Below, in pieces: positions 20,731 through 36,280 of a stretch of 42,529 nt of DNA; within the stretch, counting starts at the first letter, position 1; every line of letters starts with the position of its first letter. The DNA is from Chryseobacterium gleum (GTDB lineage: Bacteria; Bacteroidota; Bacteroidia; Flavobacteriales_F; PHOS-HE28). The position numbers were made by a program, and so were the translations under genes. The stretch is taken from assembly GCA_945872795.1 (NCBI GenBank), contig CAMCAZ010000031.1:1-42529 (forward strand), in the 5' to 3' direction. The notes under the pieces are model-generated. The model was not told the origin of the DNA. It saw only the letters and a program-made list of their open reading frames with translations, and made no database searches.

Positions 20731-21230
20731 TGCGATACATCCCAACGACGGACCAACTGTTCCAAGGCATCTTTACCAATAAGATGCTCCACGAACTCAC
20801 GGAAAGCACCCTCTCCTCCAGCCTTGACGGTGACATGCTTCACACGCGCCTTCACATAGTCGGGAGCGTTCGCAGGCGCCGCACTGAATCCAACGACCTG
20901 TAACAAGGCCAGGTCCATAAGGTCATCCCCGATGTAGGCACAGGCATCCAATTCCACACCAAGTTCTGCGCAGATGGACCGGGCCAGCGAAAGCTTGTCC
21001 TTGACCCCTTGGTGCAGGTGCGTTATGCCGAGCTTGGCGCAACGTCGAGCCACAATGGCTGTGTCTTCACCAGTGAGCACCACTACCGGCACCTCCAGCG
21101 CGCGGAGAAAGAGCACTCCGGCACTATCGCTGGTGTTGAACTTCTTCCACTCGTTGCCGGTCTGGTCGTAGTACATGCCCCCATCGGTCCAGACACCGTC
21201 GATGTCGGTGAATACGAGCTTTGTGATCAT
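20727..21230 (-). CDS. KdsC-like HAD-superfamily phosphatase
   Basis: The 167-residue protein fits KdsC length. Asp9 and Asp11 in FTDIDGVWTDG are the HAD nucleophile and general acid; LTGED (52-56) is motif II; KDK (78-80) and GDD (101-103) are motifs III and IV. KdsC-type enzymes dephosphorylate KDO-8-phosphate; close relatives act on nine-carbon sugar-acid 9-phosphates. Lying between a NeuB-like synthase and an unknown transferase, both overlapping by 4 nt, it probably removes the phosphate from a nonulosonic acid phosphate. That implies the synthase uses a 6-phosphorylated hexose or hexosamine, as in animal-type NeuAc and bacterial Kdn routes. The substrate is inferred. Confidence 0.82.
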   Translation of the reverse strand: MITKLVFTDIDGVWTDGGMYYDQTGNEWKKFNTSDSAGVLFLRALEVPVVVLTGEDTAIVARRCAKLGITHLHQGVKDKLSLARSICAELGVELDACAYIGDDLMDLALLQVVGFSAAPANAPDYVKARVKHVTVKAGGEGAFREFVEHLIGKDALEQLVRRWDVSQ

Positions 21231-22294
21231 GATGAAGTAACCGATTGCGTCACATCCGCCGCCAAGATCAACTCATCCATCGCCAGGTCGCGAACCGCGC
21301 AATTGCCGATCAGCAAATGACGCTCATGCCACTTTAGCCCACTCCCCGGGCTCAATAAATGCAGATCATCCTCGCCGATCGCTTCCCCGGCCTTGATGAG
21401 ACGCTTGGCCGCCACCGATCGCTCCAACTTGTTCTTGGCGGAGGTCACCGAAGGCTCAAGGAATAACTCATCCTTCCCGAAAGAACGTTCCAGCAAACGT
21501 ATATCCCTGACCATCCGTGTAACCCCATCGGGACCAAGCGAACCCGCCTGATCGGTGCCTTTCATCCGGCGGTCGATGGTGACATGCTTTTCAATGATAC
21601 GAGCTCCCATCGCGACAGCGGCCACCGGCGTTGATATTCCAATGGTATGGTCGGAATAGCCGATCGTGTACTGCGGGTACGTGCGCTGCAGGAACCGAAT
21701 GGTGAGCAGATTCGCGTGGTCCGGATGCGTGGGATACTCGCTCACACAGTGGAGAATGGAGATGTCTTCATGATGCCGGGTGATCACCGCCAGGGCATCA
21801 TCAAGGTCCCGCTGGTCCGCCATGCCCGTACTGAGGATGATCGGGATGCGCGTCTCAGCCAATGCAGCCAGCAGGGGCAGGTTGGTGAGGTCGCGGCTGG
21901 CCACCTTCAGCTTGTCCGGAGAGAAGTAGCGGAGCATGCCAAGACATCCCATGGCACAGAGGGTCTCAACGAACTCGAAGCCATGCGATTTGGCATGCCT
22001 GTATAGCTCGAAGTGCGCTTCATCGTCCAATTCCAGGAAGGCGCGGTGCTCTCCGTAGGTACTACCGAAGGAATGGGCGGACGTGTACGGCCGCTCCATT
22101 TCAGAGCGGCTCAACTCCTGCGCCAGGTCCCGCTTGGTGAATTTCACCGCATCCAGCCGCGGCAGTTCCAACCCGAAATGCTCCTCGCGCACGGGGCGCG
22201 AAAGCATGTCGATGATGAGCTTGGCGAGGTCGACCGAACCATTGTGGTTCTGGCCCACCTCACCGATCAGGTAAGTATGGCGTTCATTTGACAT
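21227..22294 (-). CDS. neuB: NeuB/SpsE-like nonulosonic acid synthase
   Basis: The 355-residue protein has the NeuB TIM-barrel: IGEVGQNHNGS near residue 11, DAVKFTKRD, LKVASRDLTNLPLL, ILSTGMAD, LHCVSEYPTHPDHANL and YSDHTIG, all in family order, then IEKHVTIDRRMKGTDQAGSL. The C-terminal SAF domain is present from about residue 290 (RSVAAKRLIKAGEAI). The enzyme condenses phosphoenolpyruvate with an acetamido-mannose-type sugar (or its 6-phosphate) to a nonulosonic acid. It overlaps the cytidylyltransferase gene by 11 nt and the phosphatase by 4 nt, so the three form a tight module. The exact acid (NeuAc, Kdn, legionaminic or other) cannot be told from sequence alone. Confidence 0.87.
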   Translation of the reverse strand: MSNERHTYLIGEVGQNHNGSVDLAKLIIDMLSRPVREEHFGLELPRLDAVKFTKRDLAQELSRSEMERPYTSAHSFGSTYGEHRAFLELDDEAHFELYRHAKSHGFEFVETLCAMGCLGMLRYFSPDKLKVASRDLTNLPLLAALAETRIPIILSTGMADQRDLDDALAVITRHHEDISILHCVSEYPTHPDHANLLTIRFLQRTYPQYTIGYSDHTIGISTPVAAVAMGARIIEKHVTIDRRMKGTDQAGSLGPDGVTRMVRDIRLLERSFGKDELFLEPSVTSAKNKLERSVAAKRLIKAGEAIGEDDLHLLSPGSGLKWHERHLLIGNCAVRDLAMDELILAADVTQSVTSS

Positions 22295-23054
22295 GGGCGC
22301 TCATGTTCGTTCGCATTTCCGTAATCAGATCCGGATGCGTGTCCAGGTAACCAAGAAGTTCACCGACCCCCATAGGCCGCTCATGGCCTATGCCCTTGAT
22401 GACACGCGTACAGATAGTAAGGTCGTCCTCTGTATCCACCGTTAGCCTCCATTGGCGCACCTTGTCCTCGTGCGGTACCGGCATCATGATGGTCCTGTAC
22501 TCATCGGGATGGCTGTAAAGGTAGTTGGTTACATGCTCGTGGTAGAGCGGATCATCGGTGGCTTCAGCCGCCCTGTCCAATGCTGCCAGCGAGGCCCATT
22601 CCGCGAACAGTCCACAATGCGACCGGATGGCGGGCAACCCATCGCGGAACCCCCACGATGCATAGTCTGCGCGGGCGGTAGTGGCTGCAGACACCAGGCC
22701 GGGCAACAGATCGACCTGGAGCAACGGATTGTCTGCGCAGACGCGGATGATATGATCCCATCCAGCGGAGCGTGCGGCCTCCCGGAAACGCAAGAGCACG
22801 TCCTGCTCGTTCCCCTGGAAGACCCCGACTCCCAACTTCCGGGCAACTTCTACCAGTGCATCATCCACCGATGCCGTAGTGGTGGCCAGCAGGATTTTCC
22901 CAGCAGGGAATACCGCCAGCAGTCGCCGCAGTACCCATTCCAGCAGGGTCGTGCCCGGCAGGATCTCGCGAAGCATCTTGTTCGGGAGGCGCGTGGAGCC
23001 CAAGCGGGCCTGGACGAGGATGCCCCATGTCGGTAATGAACCAGCCTTACTCAT
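22284..23054 (-). CDS. SpsF-like cytidylyltransferase (acylneuraminate cytidylyltransferase family)
   Basis: From ATG 23054 the product is 256 residues. QARLGSTRLPNK at about 15-26 is the nucleotide-binding signature of the SpsF/NeuA group; LLATTTASVDDALVEVA, GNEQDVLLRFREAA and RVCADNPLLQVDLLPGL follow in family order. It should activate the sugar acid made by the NeuB-like enzyme as a CMP derivative. The 23078 Met is an alternative start adding eight residues. SpsF- and SpsE-type proteins occur together in sugar-acid pathways of many bacteria, which supports the pairing. It heads the three-gene module; 87 nt separate it from the AT-rich acyltransferase gene upstream, with no clear promoter box. 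Confidence 0.8.
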   Translation of the reverse strand: MSKAGSLPTWGILVQARLGSTRLPNKMLREILPGTTLLEWVLRRLLAVFPAGKILLATTTASVDDALVEVARKLGVGVFQGNEQDVLLRFREAARSAGWDHIIRVCADNPLLQVDLLPGLVSAATTARADYASWGFRDGLPAIRSHCGLFAEWASLAALDRAAEATDDPLYHEHVTNYLYSHPDEYRTIMMPVPHEDKVRQWRLTVDTEDDLTICTRVIKGIGHERPMGVGELLGYLDTHPDLITEMRTNMSAHVK

Positions 23055-23141
23055 TCCTGATCGTGTTCTGGAAACCAAGCAAAGAAAACTGTTCAGCTCG
23101 CATTTTCTTTGAATGCTCCGGTCGCTGTAACCAAAAACACA

Positions 23142-24137
23142 TCAGGACAGGCCGAAGAGCACCCTTCTGAACAGCTTAAATCGATTGAGAAAAAAATAGG
23201 CGACAAAGAAACCGGCCAACGCAAGCGCCATCAAAGAATAGTACACTAGCATGTCCGTGAAATTAAAAAAGTATTTTATAATTATTATTGGCATTACATG
23301 CCATAAGTATATCCCCATGGAATTAATACCCAACCACTCAATCCAATATACCGAAGGAAAGGAACCTCTTTCGATGTTGTACAAAATCCAGCTGATCAAC
23401 ACAAAATTGAAAAAATAGTACAATATTGATTTCAGTACATCAACCGAAGATAAATTAAACATTAATAATCCGATCAGCAGGAATGTGAAAATAATTCTTC
23501 TACCCAATCCATCGAACCAGGCCATAATTGCCTTAAACTTTATTCCGAATACAAAAAAGATAAAATAATAGGGCCTAATAGTTTCATCCATAAATCTTAT
23601 TGAATTTTTATATTGATGAATAAAATCGATTGTGTAAACATTCTTAGAAATGACATATGTAACGAACGATAAAATTGCAGCTGTAAAGAGAAAGTAATTA
23701 GAAAAATACTCAGACCGACCGATCCATCTTGCCAGAATGACCCACGTAAGAAAACCTGGAATGAACCACAAATGATAAAAAGGGAAAAATAATTCGTCCA
23801 ATATGTCGTTTATAATGTTCACTTCGGATCGCTGAACTTCGTGAAAAACAAAATAAACAGATAACGCAGTTATCCATGGAATAATTATTCTATTTTTGTA
23901 CTTTTGTAATATTCCAAAAAATCCAATATTTATGAGAGATTGATAATTCAACAAGTAACCACTTACACCTATGAAAACCGGCATATGGAAGCTATAAATA
24001 AAATACCTCAAAGGATTCCCTTCGATGGAACCGGGAAGAACGTGACCTATAATTACAAGAATTATAAGCACACCTTTAACGATATCAATTGAATAATACC
24101 TTTTATTAGAGGCATTATTTTGAACAGAATTATTCAC
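23142..24137 (-). CDS. Acyltransferase family 3 (OafA-like) membrane protein, AT-rich
   Basis: The 331-residue protein opens with RYYSIDIVKGVLIILVIIGHVLPG, the N-terminal signature of acyltransferase-3 proteins with the catalytic His in the IGH motif, followed by YSFHMPVFIGVSGYLL, and about ten predicted membrane spans (for example FNLSSVDVLKSILYYF and LALAGFFVAYFFLNRF). The family moves acetyl or other acyl groups onto extracytoplasmic sugars. GC content is about one third by eye, against roughly 60% around it, and codons are A/T-ending, so the gene was probably acquired from an AT-rich relative. It would modify the finished or lipid-linked glycan together with the MBOAT/SGNH pair further upstream. 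Confidence 0.85.
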   Translation of the reverse strand: MNNSVQNNASNKRYYSIDIVKGVLIILVIIGHVLPGSIEGNPLRYFIYSFHMPVFIGVSGYLLNYQSLINIGFFGILQKYKNRIIIPWITALSVYFVFHEVQRSEVNIINDILDELFFPFYHLWFIPGFLTWVILARWIGRSEYFSNYFLFTAAILSFVTYVISKNVYTIDFIHQYKNSIRFMDETIRPYYFIFFVFGIKFKAIMAWFDGLGRRIIFTFLLIGLLMFNLSSVDVLKSILYYFFNFVLISWILYNIERGSFPSVYWIEWLGINSMGIYLWHVMPIIIIKYFFNFTDMLVYYSLMALALAGFFVAYFFLNRFKLFRRVLFGLS

Positions 24138-24162
24138 TTAAATGATGTTTGAAATTGTAGAT

Positions 24163-25407
24163 TTATTTTGAGTCCAATTCTTCGAAAAATTTATTATAAT
24201 TCGACGCAGCATCGAATTTGGTAGCCCATTCCTCACGGACCCTATTCCGAAACTCGGGTAGGTGAGAGTGACTTTTACCGAACCCCTCAATGATCCGCGC
24301 CACCTCCTCCACAGCTGTGTCCAGTGGTATGAGCATACCCGTCCGGTCGTTCACGATCTCCCTGCAACCACCCACATCGGTTGACAGGACCGGTATACCA
24401 AAGGAAATGGCCTCCATCATGCTTACGGGCAATCCTTCCGTGGAGGACATGCTAACGAAAAGGTCCACGGCATTGCTGGCATACCATTCCATGATCGCCT
24501 GGTTATCCATAAACCCCATCAGCTGAACCTCCATGTTCGGACGCTGACGCAGCCGGTCCACCGTTCGAATGAACTGGGCCACGGTCGGATCGCGCTCAGC
24601 GTTAGCAGTGCCGCCGAAATGGACCCAGCGCACATGGATCCCCTCCACCCGTTCAAGTGCCTCGCCGATCAGGTGTACGCGCTTGATGTTCCTGACCTTG
24701 GCACAGCTCACGATCACCCAAGGGTCAAGAGGGCCGCGCACGGGCCCCAAGCCATGATCTACCGTACCCATGTAGCTGGTACGGATCCTGCTGCGGTAAG
24801 TAGTATACCGCTCGTGCAGATACCGTGTGCCAGCTTCCGAAACGCTATACACGGCATCTATAGCGCTCAATTGAAAATGCCTGAATAGGCAGGGAACATC
24901 CAAGCTCCCACGTTCCTCATAGAGGTCCCCACCATGCGTTCGTGTGACCGCAATGGGAATGCCCCACTTTCGCTTCAACCACGCCAGATAAATACAATCA
25001 TACCACCAGAAGGAGTAGTGCACAGCATCCGTAACGCCGCGCTCCCTGCAGTTCCGCACCACTTCGGTTGCCCTGAACACGTTCGTGACAAGCTTTTTCA
25101 AAGCGGGCACCAGCGGAATCCAGCGCCGTGTGGCAGCAAGTTCGGACAGATAGATCCGGAGCAGGGCCGGAGCATGCGCGATAAATAACCATACCGGGCG
25201 ATAGCGCTTCCAATCCATGGCCGGCCAAACCACCTCTACATTGGGCAATGCACGTAACCGAGCTGAAGGCTCGATCGTGGTGAAGAGAAGTACCCTGTTG
25301 CAGTGCTTTGAGAACTGAACTATGTCTGCATGGACGAACGACATATTGGGGTCGTGTACATGATACGCGACCACATTCCACCGACCTCCTTTCCCGACCC
25401 GTGTCAT
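24163..25407 (-). CDS. Glycosyltransferase family 4
   Basis: The 414-residue product begins at ATG 25407, chosen because it makes an ATGA overlap (25404-25407) with the SGNH-like gene; seven more in-frame codons exist upstream to 25428. WNVVAYHVHDPNMSFVHADI and VLLFTTIEPSARLRAL form the N-terminal domain; YSVSEAGTRYLHERY and VDHGLGPVRG lead to the C-terminal domain with VSCAKVRNIKRVHLI, MGFMDNQAIMEWYASN and SMSSTEGLPVSMMEAISFGIPVLSTDVGG, which contains the retaining GT4 E-x7-E element. An inner-face glycosyltransferase of the same locus. Its 3' neighbour is the AT-rich acyltransferase 25 nt away, so a composition boundary lies at its 3' end. Confidence 0.85.
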   Translation of the reverse strand: MTRVGKGGRWNVVAYHVHDPNMSFVHADIVQFSKHCNRVLLFTTIEPSARLRALPNVEVVWPAMDWKRYRPVWLFIAHAPALLRIYLSELAATRRWIPLVPALKKLVTNVFRATEVVRNCRERGVTDAVHYSFWWYDCIYLAWLKRKWGIPIAVTRTHGGDLYEERGSLDVPCLFRHFQLSAIDAVYSVSEAGTRYLHERYTTYRSRIRTSYMGTVDHGLGPVRGPLDPWVIVSCAKVRNIKRVHLIGEALERVEGIHVRWVHFGGTANAERDPTVAQFIRTVDRLRQRPNMEVQLMGFMDNQAIMEWYASNAVDLFVSMSSTEGLPVSMMEAISFGIPVLSTDVGGCREIVNDRTGMLIPLDTAVEEVARIIEGFGKSHSHLPEFRNRVREEWATKFDAASNYNKFFEELDSK

Positions 25408-26402
25408 TTCACACGGCTTGAATAGCACTGTTCAAGCATCGCTCTACCCACAACCGGTCGATAGTGGTTGGGCTCGTAGAAGAAGATCGGCTTCCCGCAA
25501 AATGCGCTATCGGCCGAATGGTCATGGACATGCTCCTTGCCGAAAATGGATGTGAACGCCTCCACCACATCGGATGGCATGGCTGCACAATTGTACTCCG
25601 GTCCGAAGATGACATGATGGTCGCTCCCCGCCCGCACGAGCAACTCCTTAATGGCACGCAAATGTACCCGGTCCTTGGGGTGGAGAGTTACCGCCGAGCT
25701 ACCCGATGCGATCCGTGGTTGGGGGAAGGCTGCCACATAGGCGGCCGTATCCGCCATTAGTCGTTCCTCCATATCCGTACGAATGACCTCATTGGTGAAC
25801 GGCCCTGTGCCATCCGGGACCGATGTACCATCCGCATTCGACCTACGGCTATCCACGGAAGATACGCAGTCGGACCAATGTTCAAGGAAATAAGCGTCGG
25901 CAAGGTAGTACCGGAAGCCCTGGGCAAGTTGCTCAACGGCAGTCTGGTCCGAGGAGCGCAGACTCTTCATATACACCGGACCTTCGAAATGCGGATGAGT
26001 GTTCTCCACGTTCTGCAGCACCTTGTTGTCGACCAGCAGGATCACATGCTCAATGGAGGCACCGGTGGATGCGACATATTCGAGCTTGCGCCGCATGTTA
26101 AGCACGGATTCCCCAGGCGTACCCAGTTTAAAGAAGCGTTGCACACCGATGTGCTCAAACCAGTCCGAGCTGAGAATGGCCATCGTCTTTGAATTGCCCA
26201 GCAGGAACGTATTGTACCGCCATCGGCTGCGATACTCATCGTAGGCCCGCATGGTGCGACAATCGGTGCAACCATCCGCTGCAGCCGTGCGCGATGCCCA
26301 GCTCCACCCATAGAGCCCGAACGGATCGGCGACCACGAAGACCAGAAGGAGTGCGAGCACCGGAGAGAGGAACAACAGAACGCGCAGGAGGAACCGGGTC
26401 AT
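25404..26402 (-). CDS. SGNH-like (AlgJ/AlgX-type) partner of the adjacent MBOAT acyltransferase
   Basis: The 332-residue protein has an N-terminal membrane anchor (about 4-25, FLLRVLLFLSPVLALLLVFVV) and a periplasmic domain. NTFLLGNSKTMAIL puts a candidate catalytic Ser at 71, in the place of the GDS-type Ser of SGNH hydrolases, and FYEPNHYRP puts a His at 313 near the C-terminus as in the D/E-x-x-H element. Such proteins accept an acyl group passed through an MBOAT channel and place it on a polysaccharide, as in alginate acetylation. The MBOAT gene lies 16 nt upstream in the same direction. Sequence identity to AlgJ or DltD cannot be claimed by eye, so the family name is a judgement from motifs and neighbour. 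Confidence 0.68.
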   Translation of the reverse strand: MTRFLLRVLLFLSPVLALLLVFVVADPFGLYGWSWASRTAAADGCTDCRTMRAYDEYRSRWRYNTFLLGNSKTMAILSSDWFEHIGVQRFFKLGTPGESVLNMRRKLEYVASTGASIEHVILLVDNKVLQNVENTHPHFEGPVYMKSLRSSDQTAVEQLAQGFRYYLADAYFLEHWSDCVSSVDSRRSNADGTSVPDGTGPFTNEVIRTDMEERLMADTAAYVAAFPQPRIASGSSAVTLHPKDRVHLRAIKELLVRAGSDHHVIFGPEYNCAAMPSDVVEAFTSIFGKEHVHDHSADSAFCGKPIFFYEPNHYRPVVGRAMLEQCYSSRVK

Positions 26403-26418
26403 GTCTGACAGTGGGCGA

Positions 26419-27855
26419 TCAGAACTGGAAATAAATGAAACTCACTGTGGGTTGGCCGTATTGTAGGATGAGCATGAGCACCGCATAATAAGCAGGCCAG
26501 CGCAACCAGATCGGCCAGCAAGCCACGTCGAAGGTATGCTCGCGGTGGCGTTGCACCCACTCAACAAGCACCAGCAACGCGATGGCCCCAAGTGGTGCCC
26601 ACGTGAGCATGGGGTGCGTGGGAGCGGTGAACAAGCTTGGTGATGCCATGCCGCGCAGAAAAGCCATCGCATCCGTCATGCTGGCCGACCGGAAGAAGAC
26701 CCAGGTGATGCAGATGAGCAGGAAGGTCATGAGCATCGCGACCAACTCCCGGAGCGTTGGGAGATACCGCCCAGGGGCCACTGTGTCCATGTTTGCGCGA
26801 TTGCTGCCACGCAGCAGCAGCGGTATGAAGAAGAGCCCATTGAGGGCACCCCAAACGATGAACGTCCAGTTGGCGCCGTGCCAGAAGCCGCTCACCGTGA
26901 AGATGACAAGCACGTTCAGCACGTTACGCGTCACGCCACCACGACTGCCTCCAAGCGGTATGTAGAGATAATCGCGGAACCAAGTACTGAGGCTGATGTG
27001 CCAGCGACGCCAGAATTCAGCCACATCACGCGAGAAATAGGGTAACCGGAAATTGGTCATGAGCCGGAATCCCAGCAGGCGGGCCGTGCCGACGGCAATA
27101 TCACTGTAGCCACTGAAATCCCCGTAGATCTGGAATGCAAAGTAGACCATGCCCAGGAAGAGGATACTACCCGGCAGTTCGCCTTGTTGACCGAAGATGA
27201 CATCAACATGCGATGCACAGGTATCGGCCACCACCACTTTCTTGAAGAACCCCCAGAGTATCTGGCGTAAGCCGTCCACCGCATCGCGCCGGATGAAGAT
27301 GGAGGGCTGGCTGAATTGCGGCAAGAGATTGGTGGCCCGCTCGATCGGCCCCGCCACGAGTTGCGGAAAGAAACTCACGAACGTGAAGAAGTCGATCGGG
27401 TCCCGCGAAGGTTCGAGCTGACGGCGATATACGTCGATGGTGTAGCTCATCGTTTGGAACGTGTAGAAACTTATCCCTACGGGCAGGATCACCGCGAGCG
27501 AGGAGATGTGCGCCTCGAATCCGATAGCCGCGAGCAACTGGGCACATCCCTCGATGAAGAAATTGACGTACTTGAAATAGCACAGCAGACCGAGGTTGAT
27601 GACCATGCTGACAGCCAGATATAAACGCCGGCGGCCCATCGCAGGGGTGGCTGCTATAGCCCTTGCGATGGTATAGTCCACGACCGAACTGAAGGCCAAC
27701 AGCGCTAGGAATCGGACATCCCACCATCCGTAGAAGATGTAGCTGGCGAGCAGCAGCAGCGCGTTACGCATGCGGATGGACCGACCCGCGATGAGCCAGT
27801 GCAGGGCAAATACCACCGGGAAGAAGACGAGGAATATGCTGGAGTTGAAGAGCAT
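26419..27855 (-). CDS. MBOAT-family O-acyltransferase (AlgI/DltB-like)
   Basis: The 478-residue polytopic protein carries the family core: ILPVGISFYTFQTMSYTIDVYR, FFPQLVAGPIER, YGDFSGYSDIA, FWRRWHISLSTWFRDYLYIPLGG (His286) and SGFWHGANWTFIVWG with the invariant His326. These are the marks of AlgI-like acyltransferases, which pass acyl groups across the inner membrane for O-acylation of exported polysaccharide. It forms a pair with the SGNH-like gene just downstream. The 186-bp stretch upstream to 28042 contains no clear gene or promoter box and no strong terminator. Confidence 0.92.
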   Translation of the reverse strand: MLFNSSIFLVFFPVVFALHWLIAGRSIRMRNALLLLASYIFYGWWDVRFLALLAFSSVVDYTIARAIAATPAMGRRRLYLAVSMVINLGLLCYFKYVNFFIEGCAQLLAAIGFEAHISSLAVILPVGISFYTFQTMSYTIDVYRRQLEPSRDPIDFFTFVSFFPQLVAGPIERATNLLPQFSQPSIFIRRDAVDGLRQILWGFFKKVVVADTCASHVDVIFGQQGELPGSILFLGMVYFAFQIYGDFSGYSDIAVGTARLLGFRLMTNFRLPYFSRDVAEFWRRWHISLSTWFRDYLYIPLGGSRGGVTRNVLNVLVIFTVSGFWHGANWTFIVWGALNGLFFIPLLLRGSNRANMDTVAPGRYLPTLRELVAMLMTFLLICITWVFFRSASMTDAMAFLRGMASPSLFTAPTHPMLTWAPLGAIALLVLVEWVQRHREHTFDVACWPIWLRWPAYYAVLMLILQYGQPTVSFIYFQF

Positions 27856-28041
27856 GGGCTGTGTTCAGGTCCGGCCCCGCGAATCGGCGGACAGCAAGCC
27901 ACGCATGTCAAAAACCGGACTTAAAGCCAGCTCTGAGAACTGCTGTAGCACTGTCGACGTCATGCAAGCATTACAACTACAAAGCCTACGAACCATCGGC
28001 CATTCTAATGGACCCGACCGAGGGGTCAAAATACTTGTTAT

Positions 28042-29277
28042 TCATTGAATGAGCGGTGGTTCCAACCCAACTCTTATCACCTCTATCGATGATGCGTTCG
28101 GAAGGTATGGTATGGAAGATAGTGGCCTGAACCGGCTACTCACTTTAACCTCTCCTGCTCGGGTCAAATGAATCAGGTTCTCGATGGATTCCTGCCTGCG
28201 CATGCTCAGGTTCCATGTGTACAGGCCCTCGTGCAGAAGCAACGGATCGATGTGCAGGCGGATGAGCTGCTGACCTCTTTCAAGATCAATGGGAGTACCA
28301 CCCCGTTCGCTGCTCCAGCACATCACCGCACGATGCTGTTGATCAACAAGTGTGAAGGAGAACAATGCACCTGAAATAGCACGTTCACTGATGATATTCA
28401 ACTCCACGGACATCCGGCCTCCATACTCGATCGCACCTGGCTCCAACACGGTCGCCTCAATTGCCGTAACCGGTGGATAGAACATGTGTACCTGGCCATC
28501 ACGGAATGCTCCAGGGCCAGCTTCGTTCGCATCGAAATAAGCGGCAATACCATCCACGGTGTTCCGATAATGGGTGTGCCTGCCGTTCCGCATCATCAGT
28601 ACCGAACTGCAGATCGAACCGATGTGATCCATATTGTGCGAGACCAGTATCACCGCGGTATTCTCCATCATGCGGGCGATGCGTTGGTAGCATTTCACCC
28701 GGAACGCTTCGTCGCCCACGGCAAGCACCTCGTCCAGGATCAACACATCGGGCTCCAGGGTGGAGGCAATGGCGTACCCAAGGCGGACCGACATGCCCGA
28801 ACTGTAGCTCTGCACCGGACTGTCAATGAAATCGCCCAACCCGGAGAAATCAACGATCTCATCGAACCGTTCATCGATCTCCCGCTTAGAAAGTCCAAGG
28901 ACAGCCCCGTTCACGTAGATGTTCTCGCGCCCGGTCAACACACCGTTGAAACCGGCTCCAAGAGCGATGAGCGCACCAACCCTGCCACGCATGGTGATGC
29001 GTCCTTTATCCGGCTTGATGAGTCCGTTCAACATACGCAGCAACGTGGTCTTGCCGGCACCGTTACGACCGACCAGTCCGATGCATTCGCCGCGCCTCAC
29101 TTCGAAGGAAACATCCTGCACCGCCCAGAATTCCTTGGGCCGTAGCACACCCTCACTGAATCTGCCGGCGACCTGGCCGAAGAGGTCCTGCACCCCATAG
29201 CCCAACGAAGTCCTCAGGTCCTTGCAGAACTTCTTGGAGACCGCCTCCACACTGACCAGAACATCGCCACGCTGCAT
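28042..29277 (-). CDS. wzt: Polysaccharide ABC transporter ATP-binding protein (Wzt-like) with C-terminal cargo domain
   Basis: The 411-residue protein has an ABC domain: Walker A GRNGAGKTT at 70-78, signature YSSGM at 158-162, Walker B VLILDE at 178-183 followed by SHN of the switch region. Residues from about 250 form an extra beta-rich domain (AIEATVLEPGAIEYGGRMSVEL onward) like the Wzt C-terminal carbohydrate-binding domain that recognises a modified non-reducing end. The length is near that of cargo-binding Wzt proteins and well above that of capsule-type KpsT. It powers export of undecaprenyl-linked glycan through the permease encoded 2 nt upstream. A methyl or other cap recognised by this domain could come from the methyltransferases in the locus, which is inference. 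Confidence 0.9.
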   Translation of the reverse strand: MQRGDVLVSVEAVSKKFCKDLRTSLGYGVQDLFGQVAGRFSEGVLRPKEFWAVQDVSFEVRRGECIGLVGRNGAGKTTLLRMLNGLIKPDKGRITMRGRVGALIALGAGFNGVLTGRENIYVNGAVLGLSKREIDERFDEIVDFSGLGDFIDSPVQSYSSGMSVRLGYAIASTLEPDVLILDEVLAVGDEAFRVKCYQRIARMMENTAVILVSHNMDHIGSICSSVLMMRNGRHTHYRNTVDGIAAYFDANEAGPGAFRDGQVHMFYPPVTAIEATVLEPGAIEYGGRMSVELNIISERAISGALFSFTLVDQQHRAVMCWSSERGGTPIDLERGQQLIRLHIDPLLLHEGLYTWNLSMRRQESIENLIHLTRAGEVKVSSRFRPLSSIPYLPNASSIEVIRVGLEPPLIQ

Positions 29278-29279
29278 TC

Positions 29280-30125
29280 CTACATTCGTTCAATAAGTAC
29301 GGGGATGGTGACCCTGTAAAAGATCCAGCTGAACAAGAGCAGAACAGCGCTTAAAATGGTAACCAGCAAGAACTCATACGGCATGGAAGTGGCCGCTCCG
29401 GTCAGCCATTCCCTGGAACTGACTATGAGCGGGGTGGCAGGATTCCATTTGCAGACCAATGCCATCCAGCCGTCCGTGGGCATGGCGAAAACGACCGGGG
29501 TGAGGTACATGAGGAATTGTGAGACCAACGGTATCCCCCTTACCACATCGGTGTATAACAACCCCAGCGGGGTGATGAGCAGGCCGATGGAAAATCCCAA
29601 CATAACGATGGATAAGAGCCCTATCGGCAAAAGAAGGAAACCCATGTCAGGGCGTATTCCAAAGAGAAGAATGACCGGTATCAGCAAAACGAGCTTTATA
29701 CCTATGTTCGAAAAGATCTTAACCAAACCACTTAGAATGAGAGCCTCACGCGGAAAATTCAGTCGGGTGAGCATCGCTCGGGAGAGCCCGATCTGTTGCA
29801 GAGGACTTTGAACCGACTCTAGCAACACCTGCCAGAGCATGGTCCCACAAAAGACATATACGGGATAGGGAATGCCGGTGTTCGAAACACGAACAACACC
29901 CGAAACGTTCAAATAAACCCAGGTAACAGTAGTTATCAGCGGTGTGATAAAGGCCCATAAATAACCCAGATAACTCTGTCGGTATTGGGCCTTAATATCA
30001 CGCTGTGCGAGCCTCCATGCGAGCTCCCTGGAGCTGCGTACATCGCGCAGCATATTACGCAGCAAGAGGCCCGGCCGCCGGATCTCCGCTTCCGGGGAGT
30101 AGGTGGTAATGGCTTGGCTGCGCAT
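29280..30125 (-). CDS. wzm: Polysaccharide ABC transporter permease (Wzm-like)
   Basis: The 281-residue form starts at ATG 30125 (MRSQAITTYSPEAE). SRELAWRLAQRDIKAQYRQSYLGYLWAFITPL is the ABC-2 polysaccharide permease signature, followed by six hydrophobic segments such as IKLVLLIPVILLFGI and LLSIVMLGFSIGLLITPLGLLY. It forms the membrane channel for the Wzt ATPase. An alternative ATG at 30209 (309 residues) would overlap the FkbM stop as TGATG, but its extra 28 residues are Arg-rich with rare codons, so I prefer the shorter start; this choice is uncertain. The 83 nt 30126-30208 would then be a small gap with a one-mismatch promoter box (TACCTTCG, 30182-30175). Confidence 0.88.
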   Translation of the reverse strand: MRSQAITTYSPEAEIRRPGLLLRNMLRDVRSSRELAWRLAQRDIKAQYRQSYLGYLWAFITPLITTVTWVYLNVSGVVRVSNTGIPYPVYVFCGTMLWQVLLESVQSPLQQIGLSRAMLTRLNFPREALILSGLVKIFSNIGIKLVLLIPVILLFGIRPDMGFLLLPIGLLSIVMLGFSIGLLITPLGLLYTDVVRGIPLVSQFLMYLTPVVFAMPTDGWMALVCKWNPATPLIVSSREWLTGAATSMPYEFLLVTILSAVLLLFSWIFYRVTIPVLIERM

Positions 30126-30208
30126 GATACCCGGTCTCCTGTTTGCGTTGCGCAAATAGGCACAATCCGCGCGGCGAAGGTAATCACTGGATCGTAGCGA
30201 GAACCTCA

Positions 30209-31084
30209 TCAACCTTGGATCGCCATCGTAGCGGACCGCGCCATCACAAATCCCCTGCCGGGCCGGTCCAACTGGAGCAATTGGACCGCATAGCCCAACG
30301 GCTGCAGGATGTTGCACACCGCGAGCATGCACGCTACGGAATGGACCTCGATGAAGAGCAACGGCCGATCCCTCCTCAGGAGTTCCAATGCACCGGTCAA
30401 TACCAGCTGCTCCGCACCTTCCACGTCGATCTTGATGAGTGCCACGGGACCCCATCCGTGCTCAAGGACCACGCCATCCAAGCGCCGTACCGCAACGGTT
30501 GACCCAACAAAGCCGGACCGCTGGTAGACACTATCGTCCAAGGGTGGGGCGACCCCTTGCAGATAGCCGCCGGAACTGGTCTGGTCATCCACGTTGGTGG
30601 AAGCGTTGAAACCGGTTAGGCCATCGTGGTCACCGAGCGCAACCGGGAACAACCGGACACGGGCAGCAGGACTGGCGTTCAGGTCCAGGTTATGCTGCAG
30701 TCGTTCGCAGTTCGCCGGGTTCGGCTCGAAGGCGAACACCCGCCGGTCGGGATACAATACTGCAAAGGAAAGTGCGTGGTAGCCGATGTGTGCGCCCACA
30801 TCGAGGATGCACCCCTCGCCCAGCTGAGTCGGCAGGGCGCGCCAGAGGAAGTCATCATAGACCCCTGCGACCATTTCGCCGAACGCAGAGCGTTTAGCAT
30901 CCACCAGCAGCGAGTATCCCTTCAGTGGCCCACCCTGAACGACCTGCTCGCCGGCAGTTGCCGGGGCAGCGGGCACAACAGGTGCGGGGCGCAACCATCG
31001 CACGAGAAGGGGTGGCACCAGTTCCCGCGCGACCGACCTCCATCCATTGCATTTGACTGGAACGCTCCTGTTGTCAGTGCTCAC
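30209..31084 (-). CDS. FkbM-family methyltransferase
   Basis: The 291-residue protein has SAM motif I LDVGAHIGYHAL at about 94-105, acidic loop VFAFEPNP (117-124), VALGDHDG and the family hallmark LIKIDVEGAEQLVL, then LLFIEVHS. FkbM proteins O-methylate sugars or sugar-like acceptors. The first 60 residues are Pro/Ala-rich and poorly conserved-looking. It lies between the Wzc kinase (ATGA overlap at 31081-31084) and the ABC permease, a place that suits a chain-capping or repeat-modifying methyltransferase read by the Wzt cargo domain; this link is inference. Confidence 0.88.
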   Translation of the reverse strand: MSTDNRSVPVKCNGWRSVARELVPPLLVRWLRPAPVVPAAPATAGEQVVQGGPLKGYSLLVDAKRSAFGEMVAGVYDDFLWRALPTQLGEGCILDVGAHIGYHALSFAVLYPDRRVFAFEPNPANCERLQHNLDLNASPAARVRLFPVALGDHDGLTGFNASTNVDDQTSSGGYLQGVAPPLDDSVYQRSGFVGSTVAVRRLDGVVLEHGWGPVALIKIDVEGAEQLVLTGALELLRRDRPLLFIEVHSVACMLAVCNILQPLGYAVQLLQLDRPGRGFVMARSATMAIQG

Positions 31085-33498
31085 GCGGAGGTGGATGGCT
31101 TCGACTCCTTGTCCTTCTTCCTGGAGCGGCGCCCGTACCCATAGCCATAGCCGTACCCATAGCCGTAGCCATAGGCGTAGCGGTAGCCGTAGCCGTAGTT
31201 GGTGTTGTAGTAGTACTTGCTCTTCTTCAACCGCACACCGTTGATGATGAAGCCCACGTTCCTGCCAGGGTTGGCCTGAAGTACTTCGAGGGCGTTATTC
31301 ACGTGGTCCTTGCTGGCAAAGCGGGTATTGAGCACGAACAGGGTCGCATCCGTGTAGCGCATCATGAGCAGCGCATCCGTGATGAGGCCCACCGGTGGGG
31401 TATCCACGATGATGTAGTCGAACTCCTGCCGCGCTTCGGTGAAGATGCGCTCCAGATGCTTGCTCAAGATAAGTTCCGAGGCGTTGGGGGGGGTGGGCCC
31501 TGCGAGGATGACCGAGAAGTGCTCGAACTGGGTGGGAATCACCACCTGCCGCCAGTCCACCTTGCCGATGAGCACGTTGCTGAGGCCCACATCGCTCTGC
31601 ATGCCCAGGCCAGTGGCCACCTTCGGCTTGTGCAGGTCGAATTCGAGCAGCAGCACCCGCTTGCCGGCCTTGGCCAGGATGGCGCTGAGGTTCACGCTGC
31701 AGAAGGTCTTTCCTTCGTTGGGTCGGTAGCTGGTGACCATCACCACCTTGCCACCCACCTCGGGACCGGGGATGTACTCCATGTTGGTACGCACGGTCCG
31801 GAAGCTCTCGGTGATCGCCGCCTTGGGGTCGCTGTCCACCACTACGTAATTCAGCACCGCCTTGTCGCTGGCGATGATCTCCCCGTAGACGGTGAGGGGA
31901 GCGACTTCCTTGAGCTCATCGGCGTTCTCGATGCGGTCGTAGAACATGATGCGGATGAAGATGAAGATGGCGGCCACCAAGGCACCACCCAGCAGGAACG
32001 TGTAGACCACCTTGGTCTTGTCCGGGCGCACCACGCCAAGGCTGCGGGCGCTTTCGATGACCTTGCTCTGCGGCACGATACCGGCCCGTGCGATGACGGT
32101 GGTGGCCCGCTTTTCCAGCAGGAATAGGTACATCTTCTCATTGACCTGCATGCGGCGCTGGATGTTGAGGATGTCGCGCTCGCTCTTTGGCATTTTTCGG
32201 ATCCTACCCTCATAAGAAGTGATCTGGGCCCTAACATCGGACATCTTGGAGCGCACCGCCCCGCGGCTGTTGTCCAGGTAGGTGAGCACGTTCAGGCGGT
32301 CCATCTGCATGGCTGAATCGAGCTGCTGGATGGCACCGTGTGCCGGCCGCGCCTCGTAGAGCATGGCGTTCCGCTCCATCTGCCGCTTATAGATCTGCTC
32401 CAAACTCGTGAGCAGGAATTCATCCTCCGCAATATATAGGGCCGGTGGAAGCAGGGTCTGGTCATTACTGGTAAGCAGGTAGTCCTCCAACGCATCGAAG
32501 GACTGCATCCGCATCTCGAGCATTCGTAACTGGCGCTCGTATTCAGCCAGTTCCATGAAGGACGAGGACTCCTCCCGGGATAGGTCCAGGATGTCCTTCT
32601 GCTCCTGGTACTGCTGCATCTCATCCTCGTGCTGACCAAGGATGACGCTGACCTCATCGAGCTGATTGTCAATGAACTCGAGGGTGTTCTCGTTGATGTC
32701 GAACTCGCTCTGCAGGGAATACCCGATGTACACCTTGGAGAGGGTGTCCAGGAACATCTTGGCCCTGGACTCGACCTCGTCCTCCACGGTGATGCCCAAG
32801 ATGGTGGTGTAGTCCTGGTTCTCCACCTGGATGCGATTCTTGTACTGGCCTACCAACCGGTTGCGGTGGTGGCGCTTGAACTGGTAATCCGAAGCGGCAA
32901 AGGTGGACACGTTGGCGTCAGTCATCCATGGCGTGCGCTTCACCGTGAGCAGGTAGAGGGGATCACGCACCTGCTCATCGAACCGGTGCACCCGCTTCTG
33001 CACCGTGCCATTGTATTCAAAGCCAAGCTCGTACCGGTCCGCATCCAACACACGCAGGTCGAACGTACGCTCGAACAACTGCGGCTGCAGGGGTTCAATC
33101 TGAACGGTGAACGGCAAAGTGCCGTGCACCTGGCTTGTCTTGAACCGCCCGACGATGAAGTAGCTCACATCGAAGTCGAGCCTCTCGAGCACATCGTTGA
33201 TGAGATCATAGGATAGCAGCACCCGCTTCTGGTTGACGACATCGCTGTAGAGGCCTGCGTAACCCAGGTTCTGGTACATTTGGGACTGGTAGTCGTAGGA
33301 CTCCTGGTCCTTGATAAGGATCTGCGTGCTGGCCCCGTAGATGTTGGGGAGTTTGTATGAGTAGAGGTAGGAGAGCACCAAGGCCAGCAACATGGTGATC
33401 ACCACCACGTACCAACTTTTCGATACCAACCTGGCGAAATAGCGCAGGTCCTTTGCATCGATGATGCCGCCGCGTTGGGAACTCTTGTTGGATGTCAT
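31081..33498 (-). CDS. Wzc-like polysaccharide co-polymerase with tyrosine-kinase domain
   Basis: The 805-residue protein has TM1 at about 29-46, a Wzz-type periplasmic region with coiled coil near 275-400, TM2 at about 497-518, and a cytoplasmic BY-kinase domain. ESFRTVRTN is the usual lead-in; Walker A is TSYRPNEGKTF (589-599), Walker A' VLLLEFDLHKP (615-625), and DYIIVDTPPVGLITDALL the Walker B region. A C-terminal tail (about 762-789) carries 14 Tyr, the autophosphorylation cluster. Such proteins set chain length and control assembly of exported polysaccharide. It is the first gene of the long minus-strand operon, with a TATATTTG box upstream. No Wza outer-membrane gene is beside it, which is unusual. 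Confidence 0.92.
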   Translation of the reverse strand: MTSNKSSQRGGIIDAKDLRYFARLVSKSWYVVVITMLLALVLSYLYSYKLPNIYGASTQILIKDQESYDYQSQMYQNLGYAGLYSDVVNQKRVLLSYDLINDVLERLDFDVSYFIVGRFKTSQVHGTLPFTVQIEPLQPQLFERTFDLRVLDADRYELGFEYNGTVQKRVHRFDEQVRDPLYLLTVKRTPWMTDANVSTFAASDYQFKRHHRNRLVGQYKNRIQVENQDYTTILGITVEDEVESRAKMFLDTLSKVYIGYSLQSEFDINENTLEFIDNQLDEVSVILGQHEDEMQQYQEQKDILDLSREESSSFMELAEYERQLRMLEMRMQSFDALEDYLLTSNDQTLLPPALYIAEDEFLLTSLEQIYKRQMERNAMLYEARPAHGAIQQLDSAMQMDRLNVLTYLDNSRGAVRSKMSDVRAQITSYEGRIRKMPKSERDILNIQRRMQVNEKMYLFLLEKRATTVIARAGIVPQSKVIESARSLGVVRPDKTKVVYTFLLGGALVAAIFIFIRIMFYDRIENADELKEVAPLTVYGEIIASDKAVLNYVVVDSDPKAAITESFRTVRTNMEYIPGPEVGGKVVMVTSYRPNEGKTFCSVNLSAILAKAGKRVLLLEFDLHKPKVATGLGMQSDVGLSNVLIGKVDWRQVVIPTQFEHFSVILAGPTPPNASELILSKHLERIFTEARQEFDYIIVDTPPVGLITDALLMMRYTDATLFVLNTRFASKDHVNNALEVLQANPGRNVGFIINGVRLKKSKYYYNTNYGYGYRYAYGYGYGYGYGYGYGRRSRKKDKESKPSTSA
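31132..31215 (-). repeat. Tyr-Gly dipeptide repeat in the Wzc C-terminal tail
   Basis: The 84-bp stretch encodes YYYNTN followed by eleven Tyr-X pairs (nine YG, one YR, one YA), giving 14 Tyr in 28 residues. At the DNA level it is a degenerate 6-bp tandem repeat made of GTA/ATA alternating with GCC/CCC on the plus strand. It could expand or contract by slippage. Confidence 0.9.
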
Positions 33499-33631: not shown

Positions 33632-33663
33632 TTGCATCGATCATTTGGAATGGCATACCTTTG
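33632..33663 (+). promoter_or_regulatory. Promoter of the PID-CTERM/exosortase module
   Basis: TTG at 33632-33634, a 21-nt spacer and TACCTTTG at 33656-33663 match the Bacteroidota pattern on the plus strand. The box ends 28 nt before ATG 33692 and lies downstream of or over the alternative upstream ATGs at 33614 and 33650, so it also decides the start of the small gene. Confidence 0.65.
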
Positions 33664-33691: not shown

Positions 33692-33898
33692 ATGTTGCGC
33701 ATCATCCTCACGCTAATCGCTGTCATAGTTCCGTACGCAGCGGTGCTCATTGCTCAGCCATTGGGCGGCCCTGCCCCTTGCTGGCCCCCACCTTGCATCC
33801 CCATCGACGGAGGTCTTTCGGCGTTGATCGTTGCCGGTGCGTTGTACGGAGCGAAACGGGTACACGGCTCCCGGAACGCATTCAAGCGACCGCTCTGA
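33692..33898 (+). CDS. 68-residue PID-CTERM-like mini-protein, probable exosortase substrate
   Basis: The protein is almost only sorting signals. Residues 1-21 form a signal peptide (MLRIILTLIAVIVPYAAVLIA). Residues 22-36 are a Pro-rich linker with Cys30 and Cys35 (PCWPPPC). PIDGG at 37-41 is followed by a short hydrophobic helix (LSALIVAGALYG) and a basic tail (KRVHGSRNAFKR). Motif, helix and basic tail form a tripartite exosortase-type C-terminal signal, and PIDGGL resembles the PID-CTERM type of Bacteroidota. If cut near PID, the mature product would be only about 15-20 residues. The stop overlaps the exosortase ATG (TGATG at 33896-33900), so the two are co-translated. ATG 33692 is chosen because the promoter overlaps the longer frame. 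The substrate role is inference. Confidence 0.75.
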   Translation: MLRIILTLIAVIVPYAAVLIAQPLGGPAPCWPPPCIPIDGGLSALIVAGALYGAKRVHGSRNAFKRPL

Positions 33899-34449
33899 TG
33901 TCCGCTACGCCCTCTGTACAGGGGGCTCTGCGCGACCCTGTCATCCGTTTCCTTGCCGCAGGTTCCCTGGGCTATGGGATGTGGTATTTCCTTTACGAAT
34001 TCTGGTTGCATCCGCTGGGATGGTTGGATGCGGCTGTGATCGGCCACCTGATCCGTTCCAGCGGTACTTTGCTGGAGGGACTCGGCTACACCCTGATACC
34101 GGAACCGGCGAACGCAGAGAACATTCGGACCATCGGCGTCCAGGGTGGGCATCTGCTCTGGATCGGCGACCCCTGCAACGGTCTCGGCCTCTTTGCGGTC
34201 TTCAGCCTTTTCGTGCTGGCCTATCCCGGTCCATGGCGCCACAAGGCGTGGTTCGTTCCGATGGGCCTGCTCACCATCCACTTCATCAATGCGCTGCGCA
34301 TCGTGGCGCTGTGCATCGTGGTCACCATCGACTACGAACTGCTCAACTTCAACCATGACTATACCTTCTACGTGGTCATCTATGGATGGGTGTTCCTTCT
34401 CTGGTGGGTGTGGGTGAGGTTTTTCCCGAACAGGCCTGCCACTGCGTGA
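33898..34449 (+). CDS. xrtF: Exosortase family protein, XrtF type
   Basis: At 183 residues it is a short exosortase with about five membrane spans. The transpeptidase-like triad is visible: Cys93 in GDPCNGLGL, Arg134 in INALRIV, and His153 in NFNHDYTFY. The context W-I-G-D-P-C-N-G-L and the length fit the compact exosortases (XrtF) of Flavobacteria-type genomes. Exosortases cut CTERM sorting signals at the outer face of the inner membrane and pass the protein on for surface release or attachment, normally in genomes making exopolysaccharide. It is coupled upstream to the PID-CTERM-like mini-protein and is followed 2 nt later by its usual partner protein. The polysaccharide locus lies directly on the other side of the promoter region. 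Confidence 0.88.
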   Translation: MSATPSVQGALRDPVIRFLAAGSLGYGMWYFLYEFWLHPLGWLDAAVIGHLIRSSGTLLEGLGYTLIPEPANAENIRTIGVQGGHLLWIGDPCNGLGLFAVFSLFVLAYPGPWRHKAWFVPMGLLTIHFINALRIVALCIVVTIDYELLNFNHDYTFYVVIYGWVFLLWWVWVRFFPNRPATA

Positions 34450-34451
34450 CC

Positions 34452-34907
34452 ATGCGACGCCGGACGCTGCTTGCCCTGCTGATGCTGGCCGCCATGCTGT
34501 TGGGGGCTGTACGAGAGTTCCTGTTCATCAACCTCAACTACCAGCTGGATGCATTGACCTACAAGCGTCCGGTGTCCTATGCCCATTCGCTGTTCCGCGG
34601 GTGGACCGACGGGCTGGACCTGTCCGCCCTGGTGATGTTGAAGTGGGTGCTTGCCCTGCTCTTCATCGGCCTCATGCTCCTGCTCAGCATGGCCGTGGCA
34701 CGCATCGTGTTCGGCGACCACCGCTACCGTGGTGCGCTGGTGGCCGGCTTTGTGCTCATCGGCGCAGTGGCCCTTGCCCTGCATGCGTTCTCCGGCAGCG
34801 TACCTGCACTCTACGGCGTATCGGTGAAGCTGTTGCACCTGCTGCAATACCCGGTGTTGCTCTTCTTCATCTGGGCGGCATCGCTCCTGCCCGCGAGCAG
34901 GCCATAG
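34452..34907 (+). CDS. Exosortase F system-associated membrane protein
   Basis: This 151-residue protein has about four hydrophobic segments: LLALLMLAAMLLGAV near the start, then ALLFIGLMLLLSMAV, GALVAGFVLIGAVALALHAF and LLQYPVLLFFIWAASLL. REFLFINLNYQLD after the first segment is a conserved-looking block of the small proteins encoded directly after XrtF in Flavobacteria. Its biochemical role is not known. Start ATG 34452 lies 2 nt after the XrtF stop and excludes a longer frame overlapping XrtF. It ends the module; no strong terminator was seen before the glyA promoter. Confidence 0.8.
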   Translation: MRRRTLLALLMLAAMLLGAVREFLFINLNYQLDALTYKRPVSYAHSLFRGWTDGLDLSALVMLKWVLALLFIGLMLLLSMAVARIVFGDHRYRGALVAGFVLIGAVALALHAFSGSVPALYGVSVKLLHLLQYPVLLFFIWAASLLPASRP

Positions 34908-35002: not shown

Positions 35003-36280
35003 ATGGAACAGCAACGCGACAACGCGCTCTTCGACCTCATCGACCAGGAGAAATGGCGGCAGACGAAGGGTCTGGAGCTGATCGCCAGCGAGAACTACGT
35101 GAGCGAACAAGTGCTGTCGGCCATGGGTTCCGTGCTCACCAACAAGTACGCCGAGGGACTCCCTGCCAAACGTTACTATGGCGGTTGCGAGTTCGTGGAC
35201 CAGGTGGAGAACCTCGCCATCGACCGGGTGAAACGCCTGTTCGGCGCCTCCTGGGCCAACGTGCAGCCCCACAGCGGTGCACAGGCCAACGCGGCGGTGA
35301 TGCTGGCCTGCCTGAAGCCCGGTGACACCATCCTGGGCTTCGACCTGAGCCACGGCGGGCACCTCACGCACGGCAGCCCGGTGAACTTCAGCGGCAAGCT
35401 TTACCGCGCCACCTTCTATGGCGTGCGCCAGGAGACCGGTCGTGTGCACCTGGAGGACGTGGCCGAAATCGCCCGCAAGGAGCGCCCGAAGATGATCATT
35501 TGCGGCGCCAGTGCCTATAGCCGCGACTGGGACTATGCCGGCTTCCGCGCCATCGCCGACGAGGTGGGCGCCATCCTGCTGGCCGATGTGAGCCACCCCG
35601 CCGGCCTGATCGCCGCCAAGCTGCTGAACGACCCGCTGCCCCATTGCCATGTGGTGACCACCACCACGCACAAGACCCTGCGCGGTCCGCGCGGTGGCCT
35701 CATCATGATGGGCCAGGACATGCCCAATCCGTGGGGACTGACCACGCCCAAGGGCGAGGTACGCATGCTGAGCGCCCTGCTGGACAGCGCCGTGTTCCCC
35801 GGCACCCAGGGCGGACCGCTGGAGCACGTGATCGCCGCCAAGGCCGTGGCCTTCGGCGAAGCGCTGGACCCTGCCTTCAAAGCTTACGGCGAGCAGGTGA
35901 TCCGCAACGCGCAGGCCATGACCAAGGCCTTCACCGAAAAGGGCTACCAGGTGATCAGCGGTGGAACGGACAACCACAGCATGCTCATCGACCTGCGCAA
36001 CAAGGACCTCACCGGCAAGGAGGCCGAACGGGTGCTGGGAATCGCGGACATCACCGTGAACAAGAACATGGTCCCTTTCGACACCCAGAGCCCCTTCGTC
36101 ACCAGCGGCATCCGCATCGGCACCGCCGCCACTACCACGCGGGGCCTGAAGGAGGCCGAATGCGCCCAGATCGTGCAGCTCATCGACGCCGCCCTGATGC
36201 ACAAGGACGACAAGGCTGAACTGGACCGCATCCGCTTCCAGGTCAATGGGATGATGCGCTTGAGGTCCTTGTATCCTTAG
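35003..36280 (+). CDS. glyA: Serine hydroxymethyltransferase
   Basis: The 425-residue length is normal for bacterial [24 protein letters not shown] at the N-terminus, [41 protein letters not shown] and the PLP-lysine motif [15 protein letters not shown] are all present and in order. The cytoplasmic PLP enzyme converts serine and tetrahydrofolate to glycine and 5,10-methylenetetrahydrofolate. It is a single gene with its own promoter, followed by a 328-bp intergenic region (36281-36608). Codon use is strongly GC-rich, as for a highly expressed native gene. Confidence 0.97.

Follow-up and report, generated by a model that had tools for sequence, protein, structure and literature searches.

A PID-CTERM miniprotein encoded with an XrtX exosortase: a probable dedicated substrate whose relatives often lie beside type IX secretion cargo

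The stretch of DNA analysed here (42,529 nucleotides; the window) encodes a 68-residue protein that is nearly all sorting signal and is followed immediately by the gene for an exosortase, XrtX. That this miniprotein is the dedicated substrate of XrtX, which would cleave it, is well supported: the two genes are present one-to-one, the small gene sits next to xrtX, its core is invariant, and the arrangement recurs in other families. But what could an enzyme gain by sorting a protein with almost nothing to sort? We lean towards the reading that the short peptide matured by XrtX serves RemA-type adhesins, giant cargo of the type IX secretion system (T9SS), or their polysaccharide. The features on which the argument turns are these, in window coordinates:

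31081 to 33498, minus strand: divergent Wzc-type polysaccharide tyrosine autokinase, outside the operon
33656 to 33663, plus strand: TAnnTTTG box, TACCTTTG, 36 bp 5' of the miniprotein start
33692 to 33898, plus strand: 68-residue PID-CTERM miniprotein (NF046080, 35.6 bits; cut-off 26)
33776 to 33814, plus strand: codons of the invariant core, PCWPPPCIPIDGG, residues 29-41 (core in 39/39 genus sequences)
33898 to 34449, plus strand: exosortase XrtX, 183 residues, C93/R134/H153 (NF046081, 171.1 bits; cut-off 170)
34452 to 34907, plus strand: XrtX-partner membrane protein, 151 residues, ATG at 34452 (NF046082, 27.5 bits; cut-off 75)

The miniprotein, MLRIILTLIAVIVPYAAVLIAQPLGGPAPCWPPPCIPIDGGLSALIVAGALYGAKRVHGSRNAFKRPL, begins with a signal peptide (approximately residues 1-21, placed by eye), which is followed by a proline-rich linker with CWPPPC (22-37), the PIDGG motif (37-41), a helix and a basic tail; the NF046080 match covers residues 37-57 (E = 5.9e-09). 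The initial annotation, made from the sequence alone, had described a 68-residue frame with C30, C35, PIDGG and a basic tail, translationally coupled to the exosortase through TGATG; all of this holds, including the match to a PID-CTERM profile that it had proposed to look for, and the TGA of the small gene has one base in common with the exosortase ATG at 33898. Among the 39 genus loci, the junction is a 1-base overlap in 19, a 4-base overlap in nine and a gap of 3-12 bases in 10, with one locus lacking a determined value. Of 37 genus loci tested, 35 carry a TAnnTTTG box, which we take to be the -7 element of Bacteroidota promoters, in the 120 bp before the miniprotein (mononucleotide shuffles predict 0.8), at 26-59 bp from its start; the small gene is thus probably the first of the operon. 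A second PID-CTERM protein in the same genome was sought and rejected: the sole further match (E = 0.34) is chance-like, and the profile built on the genus finds no other miniprotein there better than E = 0.195. Five genus genomes have a second match, at E = 0.004-0.008 in every one.

The genus sample comprises 45 genomes and, among the genomes examined, the same set makes up the entire family and order. XrtX is matched in 40 and PID-CTERM in 39 (E ≤ 0.001; 37 pass the cut-off), with exactly one PID-CTERM match per positive genome at that E value. In all 39 loci with both, the miniprotein lies directly 5' of xrtX. Six genomes lack it: five have neither match (four of them 73-85% complete, one 97%), and in the sixth xrtX is truncated at the contig start. 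The core, PCWPPPCIP(I/V)DGG, with I or V at residue 38, is kept in 39 of 39 miniproteins and is encoded by 38 distinct DNA versions, which rules out a chance frame or conservation at the DNA level. Summed pairwise pN/pS is 0.008 for the 13 core residues, 0.41 for the helix, 0.66 for the tail and 0.92 for the signal (the last from a rough alignment): the core is under strong purifying selection. The alignments hold 34 of 39 miniproteins (A1, without L128, with a TTG start; L138, identical to L136; L143, cut; L158, with a CTG start; and L159, with a doubtful start), 38 of 40 enzymes (A2, without L138 and L161) and 27 of 39 partner loci (A3, the window, after correction of its start, plus 26 others; the omissions are mostly loci for which a script chose a wrong frame or start). 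Loss of the small frame beside the enzyme in relatives, a substitution pattern free of selection and lack of a profile match had been named in advance as grounds for abandoning the substrate reading; what was found instead is conserved placement, a selected core and a profile match.

One part of that reading did fall. The enzyme had been called XrtF, yet it scores 83 bits on the XrtF model TIGR04128, under the cut-off of 90, and passes that of XrtX; the name XrtF is therefore wrong, and the peptide stands, by placement, selection and profile match, as the probable dedicated substrate of XrtX. The margin is thin (171.1 bits against 170), and 27 of the 45 genus genomes exceed the XrtX cut-off. 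C93, R134 and H153, presumably the exosortase catalytic triad, had been correctly picked out: they are unchanged in 38 of 38 aligned genus enzymes. By sequence, XrtX has no relative among solved structures (best E = 1); its named relatives (15 loci) come from Flavobacteriales and other Bacteroidetes MAGs, Hymenobacter and Bacteroidales MAGs. The partner was also announced beforehand, and a membrane protein that is predicted to be all-helical (pLDDT 94.9) does follow the exosortase; it falls well under the cut-off of the XrtX-associated model NF046082, with a score taken on a version with a longer start at 34386, and its predicted structure matches no PDB fold at E ≤ 0.001. Since position and size fit, it is likely, at best, a diverged relative of the XrtX-associated protein.

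Upstream, the Wzc homologue is divergent in 36 of 36 genus loci with enough upstream sequence (of 39; in L149 it is 2.4 kb off), and several modules outside the genus likewise have a Wzc homologue no more than a few kb away. A divergent Wzc-type kinase fits a polysaccharide link, and it also suits an alternative that we consider unlikely, in which XrtX only joins the peptide to exopolysaccharide (EPS) or a lipid carrier and has no direct role for T9SS cargo; a precedent is the EpsH model proposed for PEP-CTERM in Haft 2006 (PMC1569441). The evidence against this alternative comes from the genes that precede the miniproteins outside the genus (below). The window also carries a set of cell-surface polysaccharide genes at about 21227-31084: a NeuB-like synthase, a cytidylyltransferase, an acyltransferase, a glycosyltransferase, a DltB-like MBOAT, a Wzm/Wzt-like ABC transporter and an FkbM methyltransferase. 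Of the 39 genus loci, 21 have a serine hydroxymethyltransferase gene 3' of the module (35003-36280 in the window), and some others end too early to tell; the gene is also found at L287, L288 and L294, and near miniproteins without an xrtX match at L290 and L293.

Is a substrate that is nearly all signal peculiar to this genome? Among 395 genomes sampled across the phylum, 62 hold PID-CTERM proteins and 116 an Xrt-like gene, which is present in all 62 PID-CTERM genomes as against 54 of the 333 others; of 46 genomes over the XrtX cut-off, 44 hold PID-CTERM. Outside the genus, 115 PID loci were read among the matches listed. Estimated miniprotein lengths at these listed loci are at most 80 residues in 103, 81-100 in seven and more than 100 in five; the estimate prefers a start about 38 residues before PID and so favours short values. 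Because 103 of the 115 are estimated at 80 residues or fewer, a substrate with almost no cargo is, as judged from predicted frames, common in the PID-CTERM family and no peculiarity of one genome. Open frames longer than 100 residues occur at 26 of the 115 listed loci, and one PID-CTERM match ends a frame of 995 residues, which may be a larger protein. Several loci show further variations. At L172 (G033:C1:4120520-4120591), the miniprotein signal ends in LLFSC, which resembles a lipoprotein lipobox; a short protein with a lipid at its N terminus and a sorting signal at its C terminus would suit an anchor. Longer PID-CTERM proteins with a linker motif (L/V/I)PxWA (variants include WAEP, WAQP and WASS, in the GTDB families f37 and f45) are found at L180, L222, L223, L224, L230, L231 and L235-L237. 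At L184, L187, L206, L215 and L228, the frames extend 5' of the likely start through a CxxC stretch (CQSCHRK, CQGCYRK, CVICRLD and similar), which could either belong to a longer protein or reflect an upstream feature that overlaps the frame.

The linker varies between lineages, and this variation bears on what the peptide may be. The invariance of CWPPPC in the genus, together with its recurrence, exact or changed, in other families, could point to a free peptide released as a signal or as a metal-binding or redox peptide. Only four of the 115 listed miniproteins outside the genus, however, have a cysteine within 18 residues before PID, the other 111 showing the same anatomy without one, and the module is surrounded, as far as seen, by genes for polysaccharide and housekeeping functions; we rate a free peptide as the least probable of the readings weighed here. 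Nor do we expect that the miniprotein stays uncleaved as a hairpin of two helices, occupying or regulating the enzyme, and is no substrate at all, a quite improbable arrangement even though the overlapping genes, the one-to-one presence in the genus and the shortness of the loops elsewhere (median of about 12 residues from 70 rough estimates among the 115 listed loci), from which little would be released, all agree with it. The up to nine scattered miniproteins per genome outside the genus, among the matches listed, suit a class of substrates better, and PIDGG stands ahead of a helix and a basic tail, the order that other CTERM signals also follow.

The cysteine-proline core of the proposed substrate is not confined to the genus. 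The genus profile was run on 58 relatives, and 15 loci in other families of the class were read: CWPPPC is present in five (G458, G454, the first locus of G443, G444 and G451), CWPAPC in G457 and CWPPNAC in G445; two-cysteine linkers of other kinds occur in G455 and at the second G443 locus, and the remaining six have no linker cysteine. Seven genomes thus have CWPPPC, CWPAPC or CWPPNAC, and in all of them but G443 xrtX and the partner gene lie directly 3' of the miniprotein. As these six genomes represent six GTDB families, the core tracks the xrtX-linked form and not one species.

What lies next to the miniproteins elsewhere suggests whom the peptide may serve. A co-oriented open frame precedes 104 of the 115 listed PID loci (103 distinct frames), and 83 of the 103 carry a T9SS type A tail at the C terminus (TIGR04183, E up to 0.01); a tail profile of our own, scored separately, likewise gives 83 of 103. 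The forty genomes counted carry from 17 to at least 110 such tails each and, set against the several thousand genes expected, chance would account for only a few of the 103 pairings. By our own profile, the T9SS-linked PID loci number 84, with 109-511 bp between the upstream stop and PID; they fall into nine GTDB families but 58 come from one, and they are therefore not independent. Twenty longer cargo frames, of 636-3207 residues (the 5' end of one is open), have in common a region of about 380 residues close to the T9SS tail. Ten examples of this domain have no Pfam match and a single, chance-level NCBIfam match (E = 0.069). A profile (A6) was made from 19 of the twenty cargo C-termini (L302-L321), L307 being omitted for poor alignment by eye, although this cargo still scores with the finished profile. 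A6 finds the domain in 83 of 83 T9SS-linked upstream frames and in none of the 20 other upstream frames; 63 of the 83 lie outside the twenty used for the domain study, many being close relatives. Against PDB sequences at E ≤ 1, A6 finds only RemZ (8gl8, 5.4e-32) and RemA (8gl6, 1.3e-30), the T9SS type A proteins of F. johnsoniae with which the PID-linked cargo thus has this domain in common; a structure predicted for the domain (pLDDT 75.8) has no Foldseek match in PDB at E ≤ 0.001. The domain may deserve a family of its own. In the 103 listed cases with an upstream frame, then, 83 sister miniproteins follow RemA/RemZ-type cargo, and it is this pairing that speaks against a mere EPS attachment unit.

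The reverse check does not bear out a simple rule: among the domain matches listed in Xrt-like genomes, at least 75 of 134 have a listed PID miniprotein within 1.2 kb downstream. A strong domain match also occurs in genomes without an Xrt-like gene (24 of 120), and 20 of the 116 Xrt-like genomes have no strong domain match, including two PID genomes, G273 and G391. In the genus of the window, 42 of 45 genomes have the domain, with at least one to four matches each, some of them partial (copy numbers are lower bounds, as at most four candidates were scored per genome). RemA/RemZ-type proteins are thus encoded in the genus, outside the window, and the miniprotein itself is no member of their family. 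The genome of the window has at least four domain matches, two of them near full length, all on contig C22, and the miniprotein is on C31; throughout the genus, wherever both are present, the domain genes are on another contig or more than 200 kb away, many assemblies being fragmented. The link to RemA-type proteins in this genus is therefore drawn by analogy with the sister miniproteins and, if real, the peptide would act on them in trans. One region of the same genome (L332, C22:14500-34499) is a RemA-type cluster, with a frame of 2579 residues that carries the domain and a weak T9SS tail, two 562-residue frames with partial domains, and the start of another that reaches into L333.

XrtF genomes offer a parallel. 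Ten exosortases of the class with low XrtX scores all exceed the XrtF cut-off (109-243 bits), two of them (G146 and G186) scoring equally on XrtX. Thirty domain loci were read in 12 genomes, five with a convincing miniprotein directly downstream. A PI(D/N/S/H/T) profile built on ten small proteins, five of them chosen because they follow RemA-like genes, matches at E below 1e-4 in 27 of 32 Xrt-like genomes without a PID-CTERM protein over the cut-off (21 of 26 when the six seed genomes are excluded) and in none of ten genomes without an Xrt-like gene. Among the best 30 loci, 26 were readable and nine lie 3' of a domain gene, four of these (G049, G146, G331 and G095) having been chosen without regard to a RemA-like neighbour; in the GTDB family f5, presumably Flavobacteriaceae, the best miniprotein is mostly not 3' of a domain gene. 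These small proteins are candidate XrtF substrates, by resemblance and genomic context.

How might the preferred reading work? The operon would encode the exosortase XrtX with its partner and a single dedicated substrate. The miniprotein would cross the inner membrane through Sec by way of its signal peptide, and its C-terminal helix and basic tail would keep it tethered; XrtX would cleave it near PIDGG and transfer the peptide of about 16 residues, with its CWPPPC core, to an acceptor that is probably a glycan or lipid of the envelope. Once matured, the peptide would serve the giant RemA/RemZ-type T9SS adhesins as a surface anchor, a ligand or an assembly factor, in this genus presumably including the unlinked RemA-type proteins. 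RemA is reported to work through a galactose-containing EPS, and its overexpression to aggregate cells (PMC8481357); in Flavobacterium johnsoniae, zorbs are lost when xrtF or its partner gene is deleted, and likewise on deletion of porU, porV or sprA (PMC10936215). We tentatively extend this to a broader scheme, which may well prove wrong: XrtX, XrtF and T9SS could form a two-part surface assembly in which peptides joined to glycan or lipid dock RemA/RemZ-type adhesins, with one peptide per adhesin in some lineages and a single universal CWPPPC peptide in the genus studied here.

Since the PID-CTERM and XrtX models exist in NCBIfam, the parts of the module are of known kinds: the miniprotein and the enzyme of the window pass the curated cut-offs of NF046080 and NF046081, unlike the partner on NF046082. 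Many other PID-CTERM branches have several scattered miniproteins per genome, whereas this one has a single copy with an invariant CWPPPC within the xrtX operon. The XrtF system of F. johnsoniae (TIGR04128, Fjoh_1448/1449) likewise pairs an exosortase with a small membrane partner, and XrtF genomes likewise hold PI(D/N/S)-type miniproteins, some directly after RemA-like cargo; the enzyme of the window falls below the cut-off of the XrtF model. With PEP-CTERM/EpsH (XrtA), the module has in common a signal peptide, a CTERM helix, a basic tail and nearby EPS genes. PEP-CTERM targets normally bear cargo domains, whereas this substrate is almost entirely signal and the linked partner of its relatives is T9SS cargo.

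XrtF substrates were left to future work in 2024 (PMC10936215) and XrtF targets were described as not yet known in 2025 (PMC12188702). In the open-licence literature, no paper was found on PID-CTERM or on XrtX with exosortase; four combine exosortases with type IX secretion, and one of these (PMC10936215) also mentions RemA. Small PID-type substrates next to genes of the RemA type do not come up in the consulted excerpts of that literature, so that the CWPPPC form, the 380-residue domain and the pairing with RemA-type cargo may be unpublished. The tiny PI(D/N/S)-CTERM proteins provide concrete candidates for the targets of Bacteroidota exosortases, and RemA/RemZ-type T9SS cargo provides a candidate partner; both can be tested in a tractable species in which an xrtF deletion with a clear phenotype already exists. 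If true, the proposal would explain a sorting enzyme whose substrate has almost no cargo.
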